From contig NC_068558.1 in assembly GCF_022201045.2 (NCBI RefSeq), forward strand, positions 45,039,001 to 45,103,000: DNA of 64,000 nt, written 5' to 3'. A program made the translations under genes and the position numbers. This document shows positions 8,742 to 59,150 of the stretch, piece after piece; the first letter of the stretch is position 1, and each line of letters begins with the position of its first letter. The stretch is from Citrus sinensis (Eukaryota > Streptophyta > Magnoliopsida > Sapindales > Rutaceae). The notes under the pieces were generated by a model. The model was not told where the DNA came from. It searched no databases and saw only the letters and a list, made by a program, of their open reading frames with translations.

Positions 8742-9050
8742 CTTATCTTCAGCCAGGCTTTTCTTTTCCACTCTCCTCTCTCCTCACGCAAATCACCATT
8801 GTCATGCACGGCAACAACTGCTCACGGCTTATCTCCAGCCAAGCTTTCCTCTTCCACTCTCCTCTCTCATCACGCAAATCACCATCATCGTTCACGACAA
8901 CAACTGCTCACAGCGACGCACCATCATCGTTCACGGCAAAGCACTCCTCATGACAAAGCACGCTTCCTCATCCACTTGTCTCTCCTCATGAAAAATCACC
9001 ATCATCGTTCACGTCAAGCAGCACTAATTTTGTGTCCTTCTCACGGCAAG
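8742..9050 (+). repeat. C/T-rich imperfect tandem repeat, about 86 bp period
   Basis: Two near-copies begin at 8742 and 8828, sharing CACTCTCCTCTCTC, ACGCAAATCACCAT and GGCAACAACTGCTCAC-type segments. Shorter partial copies of the CACCATCATCGTTCACG motif follow at about 8922 and 8998. The block precedes the FAR1-like exon and may have been transcribed as its leader. The frames open here are low-complexity Ser/His/Thr and are not convincing as protein. Confidence 0.6.
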
Positions 9051-16605: not shown

Positions 16606-18600
16606 CCATAAAACATTACCCCTAAAAAATTGATTTATACACATGAAAATCAATAGAAACTAAGAAACACTCAATTACTAAGAACATATCTATTAGATAT
16701 AAAAGAAAATGACAAAAAAATAAAGAGATAGAAAAGATATTTAACAAAAATTAAATTTTTGCGTCAAGATTCGAGAAGTCTTACTGCATAAACAGAGGAA
16801 ATTATGGCGATGAGCAAGAGAGATTTCGGGAAGAGTTAGCACGATGGAGGGAGTAAAGGAAGCTAGGGATTTTTCTCTCTTTAATCCCATGAACAATTGA
16901 GGATAAAATTTTAACTTAGAAAATATAATCCTAAGAGTTCCCTTAAGATGGAATTTTGCCACTGTTGGAGATTAAATGGCAGGCTCATTATTGTTATCTT
17001 ACCTCTATTTCTTTTACACTAAACGTGATATAAAAATTATTTTACACTAAAATTGTCTAATTCCATTATATATAATTAAAACCAAACAAACACTGAGGGT
17101 CGTCATAAGGGTGAGCCATCGTGCGTATCGATGGGTCACGTGTTAAGATTTTATTAATTGTACTATCGCGTACAATAATATAATGTATGTGTAATAAAAC
17201 GCGCTTACTCAGATTTTGTGAACTCAAAACTTCCATCTGAATGCGGTACATGGGAATCAACTAATCAAAGAATAATGAACCGTCACATGGCGTGACATCT
17301 CCTATTCTTGATCACAACAAGTTCCCGTGGAAGAATCTGTCGTTTGTAATTTTTATATTTGCAACTTGGTCATCGGAGATTAAGACTCTCGTTAAATTTA
17401 TAGTGATCGTTTACATTGGTGTTGAATGATTTAAGAAGAACAAATCTCAAGACGAAAACGTTTTCAATTAGCTTAGATTAGAAACATATAGATGTACCGG
17501 GAATTGTGATTTGACCGGATCATATCTGAAATGTAATTTTGAATGCATGGGCAAGTAAGTATTGTTTTTGGCTCCACCACCCACGTGGTTGGAACTTGGA
17601 ACAGGCAACAAGGGTCCATGCATTTCTCTGCCCACCATGTGGGGCTGATGTCATCGTTTGATCTGTTTAACCCCGACCTAGGACCTACAAGGGCCACGCC
17701 ACCACTTTAATAACACCGAAACCCTTTTAGGGCTTTAGCCTTGTATATGATGTAATAATGATTATTATTTCAAATTAAACCTTCTCCTTTTTCTTTTTCT
17801 TTTTGACATTAAAAGAACTCTGACTCGGGAATATATCGCTTATCATGATGATGAGGATAGTTTTCATTTGCACATGCACCATATATGCATCCTCTATGGC
17901 CTAAGCCTCGAGGAGCGATGCGGGATGATATCGAGAGTACTCTTCGTCAAGTTGTACCTGCCAGATGCATTCAAATTAAATATATTAATCAATACATAGA
18001 GAGCTGCAGTCATCACTGTTACTGCCACTGGGATGCGATTCTGTAAAATGAGTAGTTCTATGAAATTGAACCTCATGGGGGCGAAGACCAAGTCAATATA
18101 TGCCTAACTTATGTCACCAAGTCATCAAGATTCTTAATAAACCTGCAGGTTTGCTTTTCCCATGAATAAGAAAACCTGCATATACACACAAATGCAAAGC
18201 TACAATATTTATAAGTTGTCTATTTCACTACAGTACTTTGTCCCACACACACACATACATAAGTTTGAATTAAATATTAATAGTGTGTAATAATTTAAAA
18301 TTTTTAAATAAATAATTTGATAAAAAGAGTAAATACATTATATATTTTTCTTCATAAATGTATGATTATATGAAATCAACTACTACAGATATTTACTTAT
18401 TTATATATTACCATTTTACTATTAAAAGAATTAACTGCTAAAGGTATTTCTCCAGCAGTTGATCTTTAAGTATTTAACTTAGCTTTTCAGACTACAGCTA
18501 TTAATATTTACAGATACTTTAGTGCTATTATTACTGCTCAACCTCAATGCAAACAAGAGGCTTAGTTAAATATAGGACACAGTAACAACAATAACTCTAG
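16606..18600. other. AT-rich intergenic region upstream of the first GST
   Basis: No gene is supported. Short minus-strand frames (16741-16962, 17473-17697, 17894-18091) carry no recognisable motif. The right end leads into the first GST promoter. Confidence 0.5.
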
Positions 18601-18611
18601 TGGGACAGCTC

Positions 18612-18618
18612 TATAAAA
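18612..18618 (+). promoter_or_regulatory. TATA box of the first GST gene
   Basis: TATAAAA lies 74 bases before the start codon, which leaves room for a typical short plant 5' UTR. Confidence 0.6.
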
Positions 18619-18691
18619 AGACCTCGGTCTCTTTCAACAATACTCAATATTCTTAAAACGTATAATAAGTTGCCTCTCTTTCTCACTAATA

Positions 18692-19625
18692 ATGACGACG
18701 CTGATCAAGCTGTATGGAGCTCCCGTGTCCACATGCACCGCGCGTGTGATGACTTGTCTCCATGAGAAAGCCGTCGATTTCGCGCTCGTCCCGGTTGATC
18801 TTTTCTCCTGCGAGCACAAGCAACCTCCTTTTCTTGCCAAGAATGTAACAGTCACCCTACCATATCCAATATTATTTAATAATGCATCTTTTAACTTCTA
18901 CCTCCTATTTCTATTTACATGTACATTTTTCTTTTTCAGCATATTAGTATAGTATATAGCATGCAATTTGATATAGATTCATTTGTAATTGCAGCCCTTC
19001 GGTCAGATTCCAGTTTTAGAAGATGGCGATCTCACTTTATTTGGTAACCCTTTCAATTTCATGCATTGCTATTGCCCTGCGTCTATTTTTCTCAATGATT
19101 CTTTCTTTTTCTTTTTTTTTTGTGTGGAAATGATAACCATATCTGTTGTATATATTAATATTACCAGAATCTAGAGCAATGACAGCATACGTGGCTGAAA
19201 AATTCAAAGAAGCAGGCACGGATCTGATTAGGCACCACGACCTGAAAGAAGCTGCATTGGTGAAGGTATGGATTGAAGTAGAATCACAGCAATTCCACCC
19301 AGCAATCGCTCCAATTGTTTATGAATACTTCGTGGCACCTATTCAAGGCAAATCACCTGACCAAGGTGTCATTGATGCCAACTTAGAAAAGCTAAGCAAA
19401 GTGCTTGATGTGTATGAAGCCAAGCTTAGTAGCGCAAAGTATCTGGCTGGTGATTTTTACAGCTTGGCTGATTTGCACCATCTACCTTACACTTATTATT
19501 TTATGAAGACTCCCTGTGCTTCAATCATCAGTGAACGCGCACATGTTAAGGCATGGTGGGAGGATATTTCTTCTAGGCCTGCTTTCAATAAAGTGTCCGA
19601 GGGTATGAATTTTGGTGAAAAATAA
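18692..19625 (+). CDS. Phi-class glutathione S-transferase (copy 1)
   Basis: Cytosolic glutathione transferase, conjugating glutathione to electrophiles or acting as a flavonoid/peroxide-handling protein as in other phi members. Exons 18692-18844, 18995-19043 and 19168-19625 join to 219 residues, the usual phi length and three-exon plan with a 49-base middle exon. The thioredoxin-fold N-domain has the catalytic Ser13 in VSTCTARV, cis-Pro in FGQIPVLEDGD, and the glutathione-contact ESRAM. The helical C-domain has FYSLADLHHLPY. The C-terminal sequence ends SEGMNFGEK. It is more diverged than copies 2 and 3 (which share [10 protein letters not shown] and [16 protein letters not shown]). The substrate cannot be told from sequence. 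Confidence 0.93.
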
Positions 19626-23977: not shown

Positions 23978-24867
23978 ATGGGAGTCATCAAGGTCCATGG
24001 TGCTGCTATGTCAACAGCTGCTCAACGGGTTTTCACTTGCCTTTACGAGAAAGAGCTCAATTTTGAGTTTGTTCCTGTAGACATGGCATCCGGTGAACAC
24101 AAAAAGGAGGCATACCTCTCCCTCAATGTAAGTAATATATGAGTAATTAGATATATAGAATTCAATTAGTTAGCATTTATATATACCTAATGAAAAATTA
24201 ATTAATTTGTTGATGCAGCCATTTGGTCAAGTTCCAACTCTTGAACATGGAGGCCAGAAGATCTTTGGTAAAGAAAATCATACCTTACAATTAATAATAC
24301 TTCAAATTGTTAACTTGTTTAACTACTGATATGTTTACGTAACTACACATTTAATAATTGATGTGTGTGTGTGTGTGTGTGCGCTCAGAATCAAGGGCAA
24401 TCACCCAATATATTGCTATGGAGTATCCGGAAAAGGGCACTAGGTTAGCAAGTGCAGACAAGCCCAACTCCTCGTTTCTAATATGGAAAGAGGTGGAGGC
24501 ACACCAATTTGACCCTGTAGCATCAAAGCTGACTTGGGAGATTGTGTTAAAGCCAATGTTTGGGATGACCATCGATCCAACTATGGTAGAGGAATATAAA
24601 GCTAAGCTTGCCAAAGTTTTAGATGTTTATGAAGCTCGTTTGACCAAGTCCAAATACTTGGCATCTGACTCCTTCACCTTGGTCGATATGCATCATCTTC
24701 CAACTATTAATTTATTGATGAGGACACAAGTCAAGCAGCTGTTTAATGCACGCCCTCGAGTTAGTGCTTGGGTAGCAGATATTACTGCTAGACCAGCTTG
24801 GACTAAGGTCCTTGCCATGCAAAAAGTAAATTTTTATCCTTTTATTATTCTGAGTCAAATAGTATGA
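23978..24867 (+). CDS. Phi-class glutathione S-transferase (copy 2), 3' end altered
   Basis: Glutathione transferase of the phi class, closest in this window to copy 3. Exons are 23978-24127, 24219-24267 and 24389 onward, with the same 150- and 49-base exons as copy 3. Features: catalytic Ser12 in [29 protein letters not shown], and the C-domain TLVDMHHLP. The ATG at 23978 (MGVIKVHG) matches its paralogues; an upstream in-frame ATG at 23927 is less likely. Where copy 3 stops after KVLALLKH, this gene reads KVLAMQK and then GTAAAT at 24826, a good splice donor. Reading through gives 14 extra codons to TGA at 24867. Splicing to CAG|AGTGAG (24993) would add an 18-residue end, and splicing to 25308 would join the repeat-rich exons. 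A poly(A)-signal-like AATAAA lies near 25063. Confidence 0.88.
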
Positions 24868-25307
24868 TTATGTTTCTTTTTAAAAAAAAAATGAAATTCC
24901 TGAATATGGGGACATGGGGTGGGATTTAGGGTACGAGAAAAATCAATTAGTCAATTTACTACTTACAAATCATTCTGTTTCTATCATTTGCAGAGTGAGA
25001 TAGGGAGATACCTTGAGAAGTTTTTTCTTCTACAATTAGTTGGCTTGTAAATTTAAAATGGAATAAAAAGAAAATGACAATAAGTACTTATATATATAGA
25101 ATAGATATAAAAAAAAAGCTTATTTGTGTTTGTGTTACATAAATAACGTAGAGTCACACCAAGGCTAGCTTTTATTAAACTTTTATTTGTACAAAAGATA
25201 GGGAAAGTGTATGTTATTTTATATGTTATGATTTCAAAAGTGCGTATTATCATTATTGCATATTTTTGTTTCTGTAAAATTATTTTATTCATTTTTTTTT
25301 TGTTAAG

Positions 25308-26510
25308 GCACAAATGATATCAAAGACAAACGAATTGCATGAGTTAAGTGATGAAGTCTCATTGAGAAAAGAAAGAGACATATCTCTTGATGTAAGTGGA
25401 AGTGTTAAAAATGTACATGAATCTATTTCAAGCCAACCTTACGACAAAAAAACTTCTATACAAGGTGAGCAATTTGGGTCGAGTAAATTCCAAGTTGATG
25501 TAAGTGGAAGTGTCAAGAATGTACATGAATCCATTTCAAGCCAACCTTACGATAAAAAAACTTCTGTACAAGGTGAGCAATTTGGGTCGAGTAAATTCCA
25601 AGTTGATGTAAGTGGAAGTGTCAAGAATGTACATGAATCCATTTCAAGCCAACCTTACGACAAAAAAACTTCTATACAAGGTGAGCAATTTGGGTCGAGC
25701 AAATTCCAAGTTATGCAGGAGCAACTGGATATTTCACCCAAAAAAATAGAATATTTAGAAGCAAAACAATTTCATTCTCAGCCTATTGTGGCTGCATCAC
25801 CTTTGATGGTAATAATGTTCATGTACACTATTTGTTTTTAGATAATTTGTAACTCATTCTTTTCTTAATTTGAAAATAGTTCTCATTTATCTAACTTTTC
25901 TTTATAGGTTCAAACTAGTAGATCGATTTTAAATTCAAATGACAATACTAGTACAAATTCAGATGACGAAGGTGGTGCAAATTCTAATGAAAATGGTGCT
26001 ACAAAATCATATGAGAATAGTGATATACAATCAGATAGCGATGGTGATCATTTAAAATCAGAGGATGATATTGATGCAAAATCGAATGACGATGGTGATC
26101 ATGCAAAATCATATAGCAATAGTGATGCAAAATCTGAAGGCGAAGGTGATGCAAAATCAGATGGCGATAGTGATGCAAAATCCGAAGGCAAATGTGATAC
26201 AAAATCAGACGGCGATGGTGATGCAAAATCAGATAGCGATGGTGATGCAAAATCTGAAGGCAAAGGTGATGCAAAATCAGACGACGATGGTAATGCAAAA
26301 TCAGAAGGTGATGGTGATGCAAAATCAGATAGTGAAGATGATGCAAAATCAAATGGAGATGATGTTGCAAAATCAGATGACGATGATGATGCAAAATCAG
26401 ATGGCGATGATGATGCAAAATCAGATGGCGATAGTGATGCAAAATCGGAAAGCGATGGTGATGCAAAATCAGATGGTGGTGGTGATTCTAATTCAGAAGA
26501 CGATGGTTGA
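25308..26510 (+). CDS. Repeat-rich acidic exons, possibly the C-terminal tail of GST copy 2
   Basis: Two exons, 25308-25808 and 25908-26510, join in phase 0 (GTAATA donor, TTTATAG acceptor) and code 367 residues in one frame. The first has a charged start, three tandem 36-residue repeats (SGSVKNVHESISSQPYDKK core) and an AKQFHSQPIVAASPLM end. The second is Ser/Asn/Asp-rich, then holds eighteen 8- or 9-residue repeats of the form (D/E)xDxDAKS, ending SEDDG. The acidic exon contains no start codon in this frame, so it must be spliced from upstream. GST exon 3 could join by GTAAAT (24826) to TTAAG|GCACAA (25308) in phase 0, giving a 579-residue GST fusion. Alternatively the ATG at 25314 starts a separate gene. 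Neither the family nor the function is recognised. Confidence 0.55.
25389..25712 (+). repeat. Three tandem 108-bp repeats
   Basis: Copies start at 25389, 25497 and 25605, each exactly 108 bases (36 codons). They differ at about six sites, five of them synonymous and one Ile/Val. Each copy also contains donor-like GTAAGT (at its start) and GTGAGC sequences. Confidence 0.92.
26034..26471 (+). repeat. Coding minisatellite, eighteen 24/27-bp units
   Basis: Units of 24 bases (two of 27) follow GATGGTGATGCAAAATCA. All keep the frame and code (D/E)xDxDAKS. The AAATC core is nearly invariant while the acidic positions vary. Because the unit is a multiple of three, two other frames are also open, which explains the overlapping Met/Gln-, Ser- and His-rich frames here. 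Confidence 0.9.
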
Positions 26511-26726
26511 TTCAAATGGCTTCAATGATGTGTGATCTTTTTATAATCCTTATTCAAAATAATATAATAACATTTTATTTTTAGTGTGAAATGTTTTTGG
26601 ACAAATTGAATTGTATCTCAATCAAATTATATAAATATATTTTCAATTGTTATGTATTGTTAGAAATTGTATGTTTGGAGGTCGATACTTTTTCTTTAAA
26701 AAAAAGTAATAATAACAGTTTTCCAA

Positions 26727-28648
26727 GGTAAATTTTAATTTTTCCCTTGAGTTTTGCACTATTTGCACTTAGATGGTAAATATCTATTTATTAGTGAAAA
26801 CCCCTTTTACAGAATCTAAATGTTAGGATTTTGTTAGTCAATTATGGACAATTTGGTTATTTAATTTGACAAGCAATAGCTTTGCACATTTTGGTTGACA
26901 TGAGCATGTGACTTGTCAAGTCATTTAAAAAAATTGTGTCAAACATATAATTTTTTTTTTTAAATATTCAAAGTATTAAAGTTTGTAAAAAGTATTCTAA
27001 AAAATTGTGTCACATTTCTCTTTTTTTTTCTTAAATTGAATTCTTTTCTTTTATGAAGCTTGGCTGAGAGCTTTTGATTATAAGTAAAAAAAAAATCTTT
27101 GTTCTTAGCAAATCAATATCCATTACCTGCATGAATTGAAAAAGAAACATTAGATCTGTATCATGTTCGTTATGAATTTTACTGGCACTTCAAAGACTGG
27201 AATCTCTATGTTGAAGCCAATAATAGGTTAATTTCGAACAAAACTTTTTTCTTTCTTTTTATTTTTTGGCTTCATTTAAAGTTTATTGGTATTACTGAGT
27301 GGAAAATGTCAAGTTAGTTTACTTGATTTTTTGTTTATTTATACAGTTTTGATAAGGTTTGTCTATGAAGTATAAATTGAGAAGAAATTTTACAAAATAA
27401 AATATGTTTTATTTTAGATATTTTGCAAGCATATGGTTTCAGCCTATACAGTGGTAGATTTTGCATTTGATTTATGTTATGCGATGCCCATGACGTACTT
27501 TTATTTATTCATTTTAAAAGTGAGTTTGAAAAGGCCTGAATTTTTTAGGTCTTAATGAAGGTTATACATTATGAAAAATTGAAATTTAAAGCATTTAATG
27601 AAGCATATAGTTCCTAAAAAGCATAATTTTGAAGCACTTTGCTGCATAAATTAGCAAGTGTACTAGTCGGCACCAGTAATATAATAAAGTGTAGAGTATC
27701 GTCCCACAGACATTGTATATCCTATTAGCAACCGAAATTATTGTAAGCCTAATTTATTTAAATGATGAAATAAGTGAATTTAAATTAAAAATTAAATAAA
27801 GATGTAAGCAATAATAGAAATCACCAAGATTAAGACACTAGAAAATCTAATTTCACCATCACCAATCCAATTTAATCCTCCATCTATGCTATTAAAGTTT
27901 ATTACCCATGTTGACAGTGAACTTCCCTAACTTATTTAATATCATCTCTCGAGTAACATAAAAAATATCCCTACATATTAACCCACCATATCTCTATGTA
28001 AATTTAAATATGCAACGATTCATTAATCTCAGTGGAAATTTTTAGATAAAACTGCACGAATCACATAGGCACATCTCTGTCTTTCGTTTAATTCATGACA
28101 TCTATTATACAGAGTAAAACACATAAATTACAATATGTGTTTTGCTTGCCACCAAATTAATCATGAAAATAAAACTTTAATTATTAGTTTCTTTAATGCT
28201 TCCTATTTGATCTTTGACTCTTTCTATTATTCTTTGATTATTTTCTTTTTAAACTTTTTTTCCCAATATAATCCTACAATAACAAAATATAAAAATAAGA
28301 TAAAAATTAATATTACAAAATATAATTTAACATAAAATTAAGTTAGAAAGCATTGAAATAATATATAAATCATAAGCACATCACACTCATTGTTAGGGTT
28401 ACAATTATCCTTTTATTTTTTTCAATGCAATTGTAAATAAATCCAAATTTAAAGGGTATAACAAACTGACGGTATTGGCGCCAAATGTTGAGATGTGTAA
28501 GTTCTTGAAAATCCAATGAGGGGTATTTTAGTCTTTTTGACTTCAAACTTAACTAACGACACGGCAGGGGGGTTTTCACCAATTAACAGATCTTCACTAT
28601 CTAAGTACAAATAACCCAAAGCTCAGGGGCAGAAACTAAAAATTACCC
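26727..28648. mobile_element. Possible non-autonomous Mutator-like element with imperfect terminal inverted repeats
   Basis: Sequence from 26727 inward (GGTAAATTTTAATTTTTCCC, TTAGATGGTAAAT, GTGAAAACCCC) matches, inverted, the sequence ending at 28648 over about 85 bases at roughly 70% by eye. The outer GGGTAATTTTTA end is shared with the element at 33469. No target-site duplication was found and the interior shows no transposase. Inside, at 27640-28120, is a block with AAGTGTACTAGTCGGCACC and GAGTATCGTCCCACAGA that resembles dispersed plant repeats. Confidence 0.4.
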
Positions 28649-28659
28649 TAATTTTTAAG

Positions 28660-31600
28660 GGACAATCTCAAAAATATTGTTTTCGTGACTTCCAGTATAC
28701 TGTAAAGGTTGAGTTGTTATTTCTTTATTTTATTTATTTTTTTTAGAGTCAATCTCACACAGTTTTTTCCTTTTGCATGATTTGAGTAATTGTAATTAGA
28801 ATTTTGAGGATTCATCAATGAAAGAAATGAAATAATTTTCTTTTGTAGTAACACGATAAAATCACAGTTTCTATTGTTTAGTGAAGAATTGTGATTTCCA
28901 ATTAAATAAGATGCTTTGCTAATTAATTAGGAACAAAAATTAATATATTAATCAGCTTGCTAACCAACTATTTATTCCCACCTTTTAAGTTAATTTTAAC
29001 CTACTATTTGCCCTTACGGTGCAGAAAATTGTTTCTTACCTTTAATAGTATTAACCAAGATGTTGCTCCTACCTAGCTCTATGAACTTTCTGTCCATTAA
29101 CATGTTTCTTTTTCCATCTACTTATTTTAACATGTATCCATTTTTACCGGAACGGCTGGTCTACTTATTCTAACATGCATCCATCTTCGGTCCATAGGAT
29201 TTAAAATTATTTGTAATCCAAAAGTAGTAACATATTTATATTGGCCTTACATATAGTATCGTTGAACGTAATCAATTATGGCTACTATTTTTTCCAACTA
29301 AAATTTATTATTATTATTTTTTTTTTTTTAAAAGTTTTTTTCGACTATGCTTGCCCATCAAACTTCATATGTTTTCAATGGTTTTTTGTTAGTTGAAATT
29401 TATATTGCATATCCAAAATAATACTTTTAACGGCTCAAAATGATGATAAATATCATTCATTAGTCGTATGCTGATTTTTTATCTGCATTAATCTATTCGT
29501 GATAACAAATTTCATTCAAAATAATTGCATTTAAGATGATTGTTAGAAAAATAATTGCATTTTCAACCTCCGTATTTACGACAGCTTGTGGTGACGGTAG
29601 AACACTTTTCAACAACTGTACTTGATCATCAATGTAAATTATTTTTCTTGAGTGTTCATATATTTGTTAAAAAATTAAGTGAAAAAAAAAAAGAAAAGAA
29701 AAGGAAAGCATAATGCTATTCCCCTGACCAGATACAAGCAAAAAGCAATAATAAAGAAAATAAAGCAAATCGAATAACGATAAAAAAAAAAAAAAATGTA
29801 AATCGATAAAGGATAAAGCCTTCTCACTCGAAAAAATACCCTGCACAATCATATTCAAATAAAATTTTAAATCACCAAAGTACCCACTTATTAATTTACT
29901 ATTATTTAAGGATAGCTTTATGATAACTAAATGAAATTTATACTCTCGACACCCACTCATTACACTCATCAACAATTTATTAATAAACTCTATTTTTTTT
30001 CTTCTTTTTAATCTTAGCAACTCACATCCCAGCTTTCTTTTATTATACTTTAATCCAGGTTTCTTTTATTATTAAAAAAATTAATTTCTTGAATTCACCA
30101 CCAATTTTTAAATCCATTTTTAGTTAACAATTACGTACACTTTTTTTTTATTAGAATTACGTACACTTTTTCATGGCGAACAATTTGATTTCACTAATTA
30201 TCGATCCAAAGTGTGGAAAATTGACGGTTTCTAGTTTCTTTTGGTATATCGATATTTTTCATAAAATTAAGATCCTGGATATTCATTGTATTAAATAGCT
30301 TTTGATTATGGCTTACAGATTTTGTTATTTAGCTTTTTATCCTTCTGATTATATATAAAAAAATCAACCAAAATGAAGAGCATGTTCTTTTACTTGTTGA
30401 TTAAGTGTTGAAGAGAAAAAGATTGGATTTTAATGTGGGTGTAAAGAGAAAAAAAATGGTACATAATGATTTAATATGGGGTTATTTTAAAATTTTTAAG
30501 AATGTGTTGAATAATTACTTAATTTTAAAATTTCTGCATAGAATTTATTCAATAAAAAAGTATCCAAATAATTTTTTAGAGTATAAATACTCATCCAAAG
30601 ATAAAAGTTGCATCAAATGTGTGAATTTTTAAATATATATTTGGTCGGGTCCTTTAGAAAGAAAAAAGAAAAAAAAATAGTTGATTTAGTTGAACAACTC
30701 CAAGGCAAAATGATTGTCGTATTCACATTAAATTTCAAATCGCGATGAACGAAGATCAAAGTGGACCAATCTAAGATGTCTATTCTTCTTTGACTTTTCT
30801 AAACCATCAAATTTCAAAATTATTTTCTCTCTGTACACATTTTATTTATTTATTAGTTAAGCGTAATAATCTTGTTCAACCCCATTTCAGTTTTTGCCCT
30901 CAAAATCACACCGTCTGGAAATGATAAATTGCAATTTCAAAATAAAACTGTCGTACAATTTGACACATTCCATGTTGTGTAATATATGTCACGCAAAGGA
31001 ACAAGAAGAAATAAAAAAACCCCTATTGTGTTGAATAGAAAAATCGTGAATTTTTGTAGCACCCATATAAGATGCATTTATACAAATTTTTTTAAAGCCA
31101 ACTCTTTATTATAAAAATTCTAAGATGAATCAAAATACATGAAGATTGGTAGCAGAAGTGAGGGATTTAGTTTTGTAAATTTACTTGTGTTACCAATTTA
31201 AAAAATTCATTATTAAAACTTATCAAAAATTTTTACATTCTTAATCAGTTATATCCATTTTAATCTAAAATACCTTTCAAACAATCCTAATCAACATCCA
31301 AATTCCACGTAAGTTTCATTACCCATAACAACGTCTCGTTTAACGATCAGTCCCATCCCCTTTGCTCAGAAATTCATTGGCCCAATCGTCTCTTTCACCC
31401 AATGTCCAATTGGTTAACAAAGCATTACATTTTCTTCATTTTTTGTCGTTTGCTTTTAAGATTAAATCTTGTTTAATGGCTTGTTGGAGATTTTTTTTTT
31501 TAAATAATAATAGATGAGCAATAGATTTGTTTTTTACTTGAGGATTTATAATTACTTTATCATAATGGTGTTTGTTAAATATGACACAATAAATGTTTGT

Positions 31601-34267: not shown

Positions 34268-35125
34268 ATGGCAGGCATCAAGGTCCACGGTTCTGTTTTC
34301 TCAACTGCTACGCAGCGAGTTTTCGCATCCCTCTACGAGAAGGAGCTCGAATACGAGCTTGTTCCCGTAGACATGAAGGCTGGTGAACACAAAAAGGAGG
34401 CCTTCCTTTCTTTGAATGTAAGTTGTGTTAATACCGACACTACTAACTCAGATCCTCCTATTAATTGGATATGGGAGCACAATCAATTTATACTCATTAG
34501 TTTCGTTAATTGATTGATGCAGCCATTCGGTCAAGTTCCGGTGCTTGAACACGGCGACCAGAAGCTCTTCGGTACGCCCACTCACTCATACTTATTATTG
34601 TTTTCTGCTTAATTAGTGGGTGCTAAATTTTATTCCTTACTTAGATTGCATAGTACTAAAAGTTCTTTTGGATGATGTACAGAATCAAGGGCAATCACCC
34701 AATACATCGCCCAGGAGTTTCCAGACAAAGGCACCCAGTTAACATGCCCAGGCAAGCCCATCGCCCCGTTATTGGTATGGAAGGAGGTGGAGGCACTCCA
34801 GTTCGACCCCCCATCATCGAAGCTCAACTGGGAGCTCGTGTACAAGCCAATGTTTGGAATGACCACTGATCCAGCTGCGGTTGAAGAAAATGAAGCTAAG
34901 CTTGCCAAAATTTTAGATGTTTACGAGGCCCGTTTGTCTCAGTCCAAATACTTGGCGTGCGACAGCTTCACCTTGGTCGATTTGCATCATCTCCCCAATA
35001 TTAATTTGTTGTTGGGGACGCCTGTCAAGAAGCTGTTTGATGCACGCCCCCATGTTAGCGCATGGGCAGCTGATATCACTTCCAGACCGGCTTGGGCTAA
35101 GGTCCTTGCCTTGCTCAAACACTGA
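34268..35125 (+). CDS. Phi-class glutathione S-transferase (copy 3)
   Basis: Cytosolic phi glutathione transferase. Exons 34268-34417, 34523-34571 and 34683-35125 join to 213 residues. Features: [18 protein letters not shown] with catalytic Ser12, [25 protein letters not shown], a C-domain with [12 protein letters not shown], and [10 protein letters not shown]; it ends KVLALLKH. It is intact and looks like the reference form for the cluster. Close identity to copy 2 across exons and at splice phases points to tandem duplication. A MITE sits 175 bases upstream of the start codon region and a paired ACGT motif lies further upstream. Phi GSTs of this type conjugate xenobiotics or bind small ligands; the specific substrate is unknown. 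Confidence 0.95.
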
Positions 35126-49200: not shown

Positions 49201-49279
49201 TGTATACATAATTATATGCGATAACTTTGCACTAATCAAAATATATAAGCAAACATGAAATCATACAAAGCATACATGA
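46251..49279. other. HIPP 3' region and AT-rich spacer
   Basis: No gene is recognised. A GC-richer block at about 48730-48870 has no coding match. An alternating CACGCGCGTGCACGCAC tract is at about 47672-47690. The frames at 46881-47141 and 48328-48510 (minus; the latter contains a nine-Lys run) look like chance. Confidence 0.5.
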
Positions 49280-49525
49280 CAAATTATGCTAAATAGTACC
49301 CAATGAAATAACTATTAATACTCATCGGGATCATTATTGAATGAGCAGAGTGAGAAAAATACCTCTCATACTCTGTAGAATTAACATCATTGTATAGGCA
49401 GACAAACTATGTCAAATAATACCGAAGGAAATAATTATCAATACTCACCGGGATCATTATTGAACGAGCTGAGCAGGAAACATACCTCTCATACTCGGTA
49501 GAATTAACATCATTGTGGAGGCAGA
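49280..49525 (+). repeat. Tandem repeat, two copies of about 123 bp
   Basis: AATACTCATCGGGATCATTATTGAA in copy 1 reappears as AATACTCACCGGGATCATTATTGAA in copy 2, as do CCTCTCATACTC and GTAGAATTAACATCATTGT. Copies start at 49280 and 49403. The surroundings (48900-49760) have the feel of a retrotransposon noncoding region, but no ends were found. Confidence 0.75.
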
Positions 49526-56679: not shown

Positions 56680-59150
56680 GCTTTTCAGTTCAATATTCAC
56701 GATCGAACAAAGAACTAGTCAACTTGACTTAGAAAAAGTTCACCAACCCAGCCAAAACTACGAGCCACGAACCTAGCCAATAGCCACGAGCTGAACAACC
56801 ACGAACCCAGCCGGCAGCCACAGATACACATCAACCCACAAACCAGCCAGTATTGAGCTTTTGGGAAGAAGGAGAGACTAATTGTTTCAGTTTTCATGAA
56901 CACATAGCTCTATTAATTGATTCTTGATCTTGGAAGGAGATAACTTGGATAATCTTTTTCCAAATATGGCAATTGAACTCGAAGGATTGACACTTGGTGG
57001 AAATCAATGCTTTGTTCTCATTATTGCTCTTATTATTCTGCTTCTGCACACAGTTTGGCTTGACAATCTTAGCCTTCTTTGGCTATTGGCAACCATATCA
57101 ACTTTGTCCCCAAATTCAACTGATTTTTGTTATATGAATTTAATTTGATCCGATCCTAACCCAAATTAATTCAAAATATTCATTTGATCCAAACTTAACC
57201 GGATTAGATTTGATTGGATTTAAAGTTCGGATTATATTCAGATAATCTTTGTTTCACCCCGAACAATTCAAAGTCAGATTGGATGGATCTAAATTTGAGG
57301 TTGCCACCCTAAATGAAATTGTGAGGAAACATTGAGCATGACTCTTTAGTCTTAAGTCCTGATTAAGATTGATGTGCAATATTTTTTAAGATATAGCCGC
57401 TGTAGAAAAAAATTATAACTATCAAATAAAAGTTAATAGTATGTAGTAAATATAAATTTTAAATAATAATTTTGACAAAATTATTAAAGATATTGTTGAT
57501 GCTGAAATCTGGTCACCCTCGGCCTGACCAGATTGTATCACCAACGATTGTATTGACAATTACAAAGAGGCTGCACTCCACTAACCTTAGCAATTGCTCG
57601 AGCTCCTGGGACTCAAATCATTCTTCCTCTTCTTTCCAAACCTGCGTTCACTGAAACCAATCAGAGACACCAGTGATTTTTCCGGCATAAACCCTCCGAT
57701 ACTTAAGTCAGTATACGGAGTTTACAGAAAAATTGTATAATTTATGGTTGCGCACACTCACTGCGATGTTCTTAAAGTAAAATTTGTTTAAGGTTGTTCT
57801 GTAGTAATGCCTTATATCAATTCGGCAGAGTTTCCCCCCTCTCTCTTTTTTTTTTTTTGTATCTCCCATGTATCTCTTTTTTCTCAGCTTTTATAGATAG
57901 TTGTTCCGTGTTTCTAGGCCCTTCCCATGTCCGTTAGACGTGGGTGATCAGGAGCCTCAAGGAGCCTTCAACCGCCGAACGTGGATAAACGTGGGTAATC
58001 GTGTTCACTCCAGCAGTTTGGGGCATGACGAAACTGTCGCGTGGGTGTGAGATCGTGCCTTCTTTCTAAGTGATAAGAATCTGATCGACATGAACTTCTT
58101 GGTCGGCGTTTGTTTCTTGTCAATACGTGCTCCATAATGGAATATTACCATGAATCTATTCATAACATTCAGCCGAAGAGATTTGCCCCCGGGTGAGAAA
58201 TGGAGAGATGCTTGACTGATACTTTTTATTACTCAATAAATATAATAGATTTTTTCATCATATAAATAAAAAATTATATTAATACAACTTTCAAACTAAA
58301 ATAGTTAGTGTTTATTAAATAATTTAATTTTGTATGTTAATATCAATCCCAAACAAATCTTTTGCTAAGGACAGATGGTGACCATTCAAGCTCAGTAGAG
58401 TCGCTTACACGTTTTTGTGATTATCATTTCTCACGAACCATCTTCGTCATTTGAAAATTACAAGGAGCTGAGTAGCCTGGCCCCAGCGCCGGCGTATCAG
58501 CCATGAACAAGTGGTGCATTCTACAGAATACACCTTGTAGTTGTTGGCATCTTGAAACCCATTTGATGGGAGTGAAAATACAAACTTCATATTGATATGC
58601 TTATACGAGAAGTTCCTTTTAAACTCCATGGATAGATGCCCTATCGCCGAATACATCATCAACACGACGAATCCGACTCTTTTAAAAAGCAAATTCGAAT
58701 TTAAAAGGGACATCTTATAAAATTCGAAGCATATCTTATATATAGCAGATTTTGCATGTAATTTGGAATATATATATATGAATGAGGAAATGTCAGCTGC
58801 AATAATCTCATCAATCACCAAGCTAACGGTATAAATATGGATATGAACGTGATTAAAATATACGTGATTCGCAAAACACCTTTTCCCGTTCGATTCATGT
58901 ATTGGTTTGTTTTTATAGTTAATAACCACCCAGCCTAATAGATAAAATTAAAAATTAAATTAATAATGCGATATGATATAGGGTTAATAAATATGGACTA
59001 GTTGGGACAAGCAGCAATCAAGTAGTCTGAAATATCAAGCTGATCTGTCATCCACAACCACGAAGAATCTGACCAATCCCGACAAGGAACGAGGGCCCAC
59101 CCACTATTAAAGAATATTGCCATGTCAGCTCTTAAAATAGTTTCATACAT
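56680..59150. other. Intergenic region with transposon remnants
   Basis: A hAT-type right end (TTGCCACCCTA) at 57301-57311 has no visible left partner. A GC-richer block at 57490-58200 with many GTGGG/ACGTGG motifs resembles part of an LTR retroelement but has no clear ends. A 160-codon minus-strand frame (58447-58929) and a 61-codon frame (58998-59183) are not recognised. Confidence 0.45.

Follow-up and report, generated by a model that had tools for sequence, protein, structure and literature searches.

The acidic, repeat-rich exons that lie in frame behind a phi-class GST gene of Citrus sinensis are, judged by homology, the final two exons of a protein encoded by an old CACTA transposon, and the splice acceptor in front of them would be the transposon's own. 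The first-pass annotation of this DNA had proposed a GST-repeat fusion protein; its exon geometry and splice phases are right. The tail, however, did not originate as part of a GST: it is homologous to the 3' portion of a gene for a CACTA transposon protein. We observed directly the transposon origin of the tail, its open frame and its compatible splice phases. On balance, we lean towards an old CACTA remnant sitting behind an ordinary phi GST, with the tail exons joined to it, if at all, in a minor chimeric isoform. The DNA analysed here (the window) is a stretch of 64,000 nucleotides, C3:45039001-45103000, and the searched genome comprises 299.7 Mb in 11 contigs. All features described below are on the forward strand, with coordinates counted from the start of the window.

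Three phi GST genes stand in tandem in the window (18617-19625, 23978-24825, and 34268-35125); in exon 3, copies 2 and 3 share 71% identity, and copy 1 is 40% identical to them. Copy 2 has three exons, at 23978..24127, 24219..24267, and 24389..24825 (the last taken to the proposed donor), which when joined give a clean translation of 212 codons with the C-terminal end KVLAMQK. The GST domain is complete according to Pfam GST_C (54.3 bits) and phmmer, and the top match of the joined protein in the PDB is GSTF5 (5f05, E 3.9e-81, residues 4-210; phmmer). By this whole-length similarity and the GST_C domain, the body of copy 2 is a predicted phi-class GST, with GSTF5 its best solved relative, and it differs from other members of the class by its shifted stop and the neighbouring transposon exons. 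Comparison of copy 2 with copy 3 gave a dS of 0.66, a dN of 0.16, and a dN/dS of 0.24, indicating that copy 2, measured against copy 3, is under purifying selection. We also considered a rearrangement breakpoint at 24820, where the DNA similarity between copies 2 and 3 ends, and rejected it; the 5' flank is unalignable too.

The 3' end of copy 2 was the starting point of the fusion proposal. Copy 2 indeed lacks the stop seen in copy 3, reading KVLAMQK where copy 3 (34268-35125) reads KVLALLKH followed by a stop, and the proposed donor AAA/GTAAAT at 24826 and acceptor TTGTTAAG/GCACAA at 25308 (slashes mark the splice sites) are both present and both in phase 0. The lost stop can, however, be accounted for without splicing. 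Left unspliced, the copy 2 frame closes 13 codons on at a TGA (24865-24867) that had been overlooked, giving the C-terminal extension VNFYPFIILSQIV (24826..24867), which starts with the GTAAAT of the proposed donor. With this stop available to copy 2, the loss of the usual one is nothing unusual, and the gene can do without splicing. The unspliced stop lies 19 residues past the conserved K; seven of the eight other phi-GST-like loci listed stop 5-11 residues past it, and the eighth (L022), too diverged for the K to be placed, stops there too. The end of copy 2 appears only somewhat longer than normal. Some phi GST groups are described as differing by N- or C-terminal extensions (PMC4274894, PMC6540824).

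Agreement of donor and acceptor phase alone is a 1-in-3 event, and three GTs near the end of copy 2 (24808, 24826, and 24862) are in phase 0, so that agreement with the phase of an acceptor further on is no surprise. The donor AAA/GTAAAT has neither a G at -1 nor a G at +5 and is weak by the general consensus. Of the six phi-GST intron-2 donors picked here by pattern, a set that includes that of copy 2, two read GTAAAT as well, and the proposed donor is not disqualified. Reading by eye also revealed a possible alternative terminal exon of 18 codons at 24993..25049, in phase 0 and ending in TAA, with a TTTGCAG acceptor ahead of it and an AATAAA shortly after.

The tail consists of exon A (25308..25808), which corresponds to the C-terminal region of the CACTA protein and contains an ATG at 25314 and three 108-bp units (25387-25710); intron 2 (25809..25907); exon B (25908..26510), an acidic C-terminus of about 23-25 units of 8 residues, each encoded by a 24-bp repeat unit; and a 3' UTR (26511..26672). 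The tail is open in a single frame, as had been claimed, with 167 codons in exon A and 200 codons plus a TGA in exon B (367 in all); exon B contains no Met and hence no start codon in frame, and the sum of 212, 167, and 200 yields the proposed fusion length of 579. The openness of exon A is above chance, each of the other five frames having 5-16 stops, whereas that of exon B is much less so (2, 3, and 5 stops in three other frames over 600 bases). We rejected the open frame of exon B as strong coding evidence, given that its other frames are nearly open too. Against Pfam, the window tail gave only sub-threshold chance matches, and exon A had no PF03004 match. In the bacterial/archaeal and viral collections, in which plants are not expected, 21 and 7 stretches matched the tail pattern, respectively, and none was a relative by tblastn.

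A search of the genome with exon A found four other loci, at C7:28.09, C9:32.40, C8:4.42, and C5:22.95 Mb, a number that may be a lower bound, as genome searches score the best candidates only. Each of the four copies carries at least one in-frame stop. None adjoins any of the phi-GST-like loci listed, and the tail is absent from all eight other phi-GST-like loci listed; on the latter count (0/8), we rejected membership of the tail in a wider GST family. DNA identity is 83-88% among the four copies in the main stretch and about 67-80% between the copies and the window. The similarity starts approximately 100 bp upstream of the acceptor in three of the four copies and approximately 10 bp upstream (from about 25298) in the C8 copy. 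The second intron (72-80% identity) and parts of the 3' UTR, still alignable in the window, are common to all four copies, as is the ATG at 25314. The acceptor AG/GCACAA is kept in three copies and is absent in C7; the site at 25308 appears to be an ancestral acceptor of the transposon. The preceding transposon exon is best kept in C5, where it ends in phase 0 at DKAKELH/GTATGT. A tentative remnant of this exon (DKAKELH in the copies) was placed at 25190..25208 from MAFFT alignments only; by eye, its frame is no longer open, and BLAST similarity begins at 25205-25208. Behind it, a 99-nt sequence running from GTATGT to TTAAG (25209..25307) corresponds to the ancestral transposon intron, with 77-83% identity to three of the four copies; it is not alignable in C8.

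The nature of this family is given by its termini. All four copies end downstream in TTTTCTTGTAGTG (three exactly, one with one mismatch), the reverse of which is CACTACAAGAAAA, and which we take to be the terminal repeat at the end of CACTA elements. In the stretches of 9.5-9.9 kb searched around the copies, no 5' end in the right orientation was found; one locus (L024) has an extra one-mismatch match to the terminal repeat in the other orientation. The window holds a subterminal region of the same family at 29233..29599, collinear with the tail and mostly 60-69% identical (best E 4e-22), followed by an eroded 3' terminal inverted repeat, TTTTTCTTGAGTG (29642..29654), recognised by alignment and with one base lost. 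The 3'-end alignment had a score of 215, whereas 50 shuffles reached no more than 118; the identity in that alignment (74-79%) does not exceed that of the shuffles (mean 75%), and only the score stands out. By these alignments, a 3' end of the CACTA family is present downstream of the tail, at about 29233-29654. An intact CACTA end in the window was rejected, as nothing within two mismatches exceeds chance; for the 5' terminal repeat, four two-mismatch matches were found against 3.6 expected in the whole window, none of them just upstream. Judged by these sequence comparisons, the assignment of the tail family to CACTA (En/Spm) is firm.

The encoded protein is probably a transposon protein of the Transposase_24 (PF03004) type. 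Against a PF03004 cut-off of 28.7 bits, the joined exons of the C5 copy scored 21.0 (model positions 64-130), and two relatives, L068 and L070, scored 22.3 and 44.3; L068 is tied to the copies at an E of 0.003 and by the same exon order. Neither a shorter two-exon piece of C5 (43 residues) nor a C7 piece matched PF03004, and a genome-wide profile search listed seven weak places, none of which is one of the four copies. L068 (C8:9792029) and L069 (C7:17408263) both have a Transposase_24-like exon series with a coiled-coil-like region, and the last exon of L068 is short and acidic. Transposase_24 is reported in CACTA elements, with a Citrus clementina protein among the examples (PMC8978399). The window piece resembles the CACTA Transposase_24 ('Ptta') protein in its exons, which are homologous to CACTA-borne copies, in the matching position of a phase-0 intron, and in an acidic final exon, which L068 also has; it resembles CACTA elements in its terminal repeat and subterminal region. 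It differs in having no upstream exons, 5' end, or PF03004 match, in the threefold expansion of the 108-bp unit, and in a far longer acidic repeat, the acidic stretch being shorter in the copies.

The CACTA remnant is interrupted by a younger multi-copy repeat at 27640..28128, with a further piece at 28260-28383. At least 39 further places in the genome match this repeat at 81-88% identity, a count taken from the best 40 of 620 candidates. When 20 of those copies were placed in a tree with it, the window repeat had the longest of the 21 tip branches, at 0.137 substitutions per site, its grouping there being without support (0.077). If the two CACTA pieces derive from one insertion, they are older than the interrupting repeat. 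The value of 0.137 may overstate the age because methylated repeats may mutate faster; an old age of the CACTA element is supported as a rough estimate. On either side of the 27640-28383 repeat lie two inverted sequences that are approximately 80% identical (26727-26804 and 28569-28647) and could, together, mark the two ends of another transposon, about 1.9 kb long and lying within the CACTA remnant. Elsewhere in the window, 57368-57493, 58240-58340, and 18484-18524 match DNA flanking another CACTA-end locus (L034), and there are two-copy tandem repeats at 8742-8911 (86 bp) and 49278-49525 (123 bp).

For an insertion of this age, the frame of the tail has remained open for longer than would readily be expected under neutral decay. 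In neutral simulations at 0.137 substitutions per site, exon A remained stop-free with a probability of 0.05 and also frameshift-free with a probability of 0.0008, assuming 0.1 indels per substitution; the corresponding values were 0.18 and 0.010 with one repeat unit only, and 0.22 and 0.023 for the full exon at 0.065 substitutions per site. Of the seven changes that separate the three 108-bp units, five are synonymous, where about 23% would be expected (P about 0.01, rising to 0.04 if a higher silent fraction is assumed). Over the first 37 codons of exon A, dN/dS between the window and the copies is 0.26-0.55, and between pairs of copies it ranges from 0.32 to 3.05 (few codons). These patterns are suggestive of translation of exon A, and some of the constraint may be a legacy of the transposon's active period. 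The substitutions in exon B look neutral-like: among its 15 units, 10 changes are silent, 28 are replacements, and none creates a stop, with 25, 72, and 3% as the neutral expectation. Given the open frame and the mostly silent unit changes, the tail is possibly expressed, either in a chimeric GST isoform or alone from the ATG at 25314.

From the sequence features above, we infer which transcripts exist. A CACTA (En/Spm) transposon would have inserted immediately behind phi-GST copy 2. Its 5' part would have been lost, with the last two coding exons, their introns, and the 3' end staying in place, and the remnant would later have been interrupted by the repeat insertion. Copy 2 most probably yields an ordinary phi GST, ending either unspliced at the TGA (24865-24867) or in the 18-codon exon at 24993. 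The exons of transposon origin would keep their own phase-0 acceptor and be added at most in some GST transcripts.

Unlikely, in our estimate, is a fusion fixed by exon capture, in which the donor at 24826 (or 24862) is joined to 25308 to give a 579-residue (or slightly longer) phi GST with a transposon-derived acidic tail under selection, a tail that would since have grown into its long repeat arm. A donor and an acceptor both in phase 0, and retention of the latter in three of the four copies, would suit such a fusion, as would the presence of GTAAAT among other phi-GST donors here, but the donor departs from the consensus at -1 and +5, the stop 13 codons on makes its use unnecessary, and the acceptor at 24993, closer to consensus and followed by a stop and AATAAA, comes before 25308. 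The openness of exon A in an old insertion (stop-free P 0.05, and 0.0008 without frameshifts, at 0.137) and the silent bias between the 108-bp units would likewise favour this reading; against it stand the neutral-looking changes in exon B (10 silent, 28 replacement) and the lack of the tail in all eight other GST loci listed. There is a precedent in soybean, where CACTA-borne exons occur in chimeric host transcripts (PMC1947982).

We regard it as quite unlikely that the tail is an independent gene, with a promoter between the GST and 25208, the ancestral intron (25209-25307) used within its 5' UTR, and translation from the ATG at 25314 into a 365-residue domesticated transposon protein without GST. 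Retention of both the GTATGT donor at 25209 and the acceptor at 25307, conservation of the ATG in all four copies, and the open, partly constrained frame are consistent with such a gene, but exon B is neutral-like, and the TATA-like run TATATATATAG read by eye near 25088 is ordinary for AT-rich DNA.

The locus has parallels in known systems. In soybean Tgm-Express1, CACTA exons are spliced into F3H transcripts, giving a putative chimeric open frame 418 residues long (PMC1947982). The two systems share CACTA-carried exons beside host exons and chimeric open frames; they differ in that Tgm-Express1 carries captured host exons, sits in an intron, and is proven by cDNA, whereas the tail of copy 2 is made of the transposon's own exons, lies 3' of the last GST exon, and is only putatively joined to the GST. 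In a long-read study in Arabidopsis, about 3000 genes were linked to TE-gene transcripts and, for one locus group, a minor contribution to new protein function was suggested (PMC10241880). In the literature covered, parts of PMC6540824, PMC4138524, and PMC4274894 included, we found no phi GST that carries a transposon-derived tail, an absence that does not amount to proof. The copy 2 locus shares a transposon coding exon with its own acceptor beside a host gene with host-transposase fusions, but differs in having only the C-terminal transposon part and a putative joining. Such fusions reportedly arise by exon capture (Cosby et al. 2021).

The transposon origin of the tail had gone unseen in the first-pass annotation. 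What had seemed a GST domain fusion becomes a set of transposon exons that lie, compatible in phase, behind a host gene. If no joined transcripts exist, the locus serves as a warning that gene predictors may call a false 579-residue GST; if they do exist, it would represent exon capture in a plant whose source family is still present in the genome.
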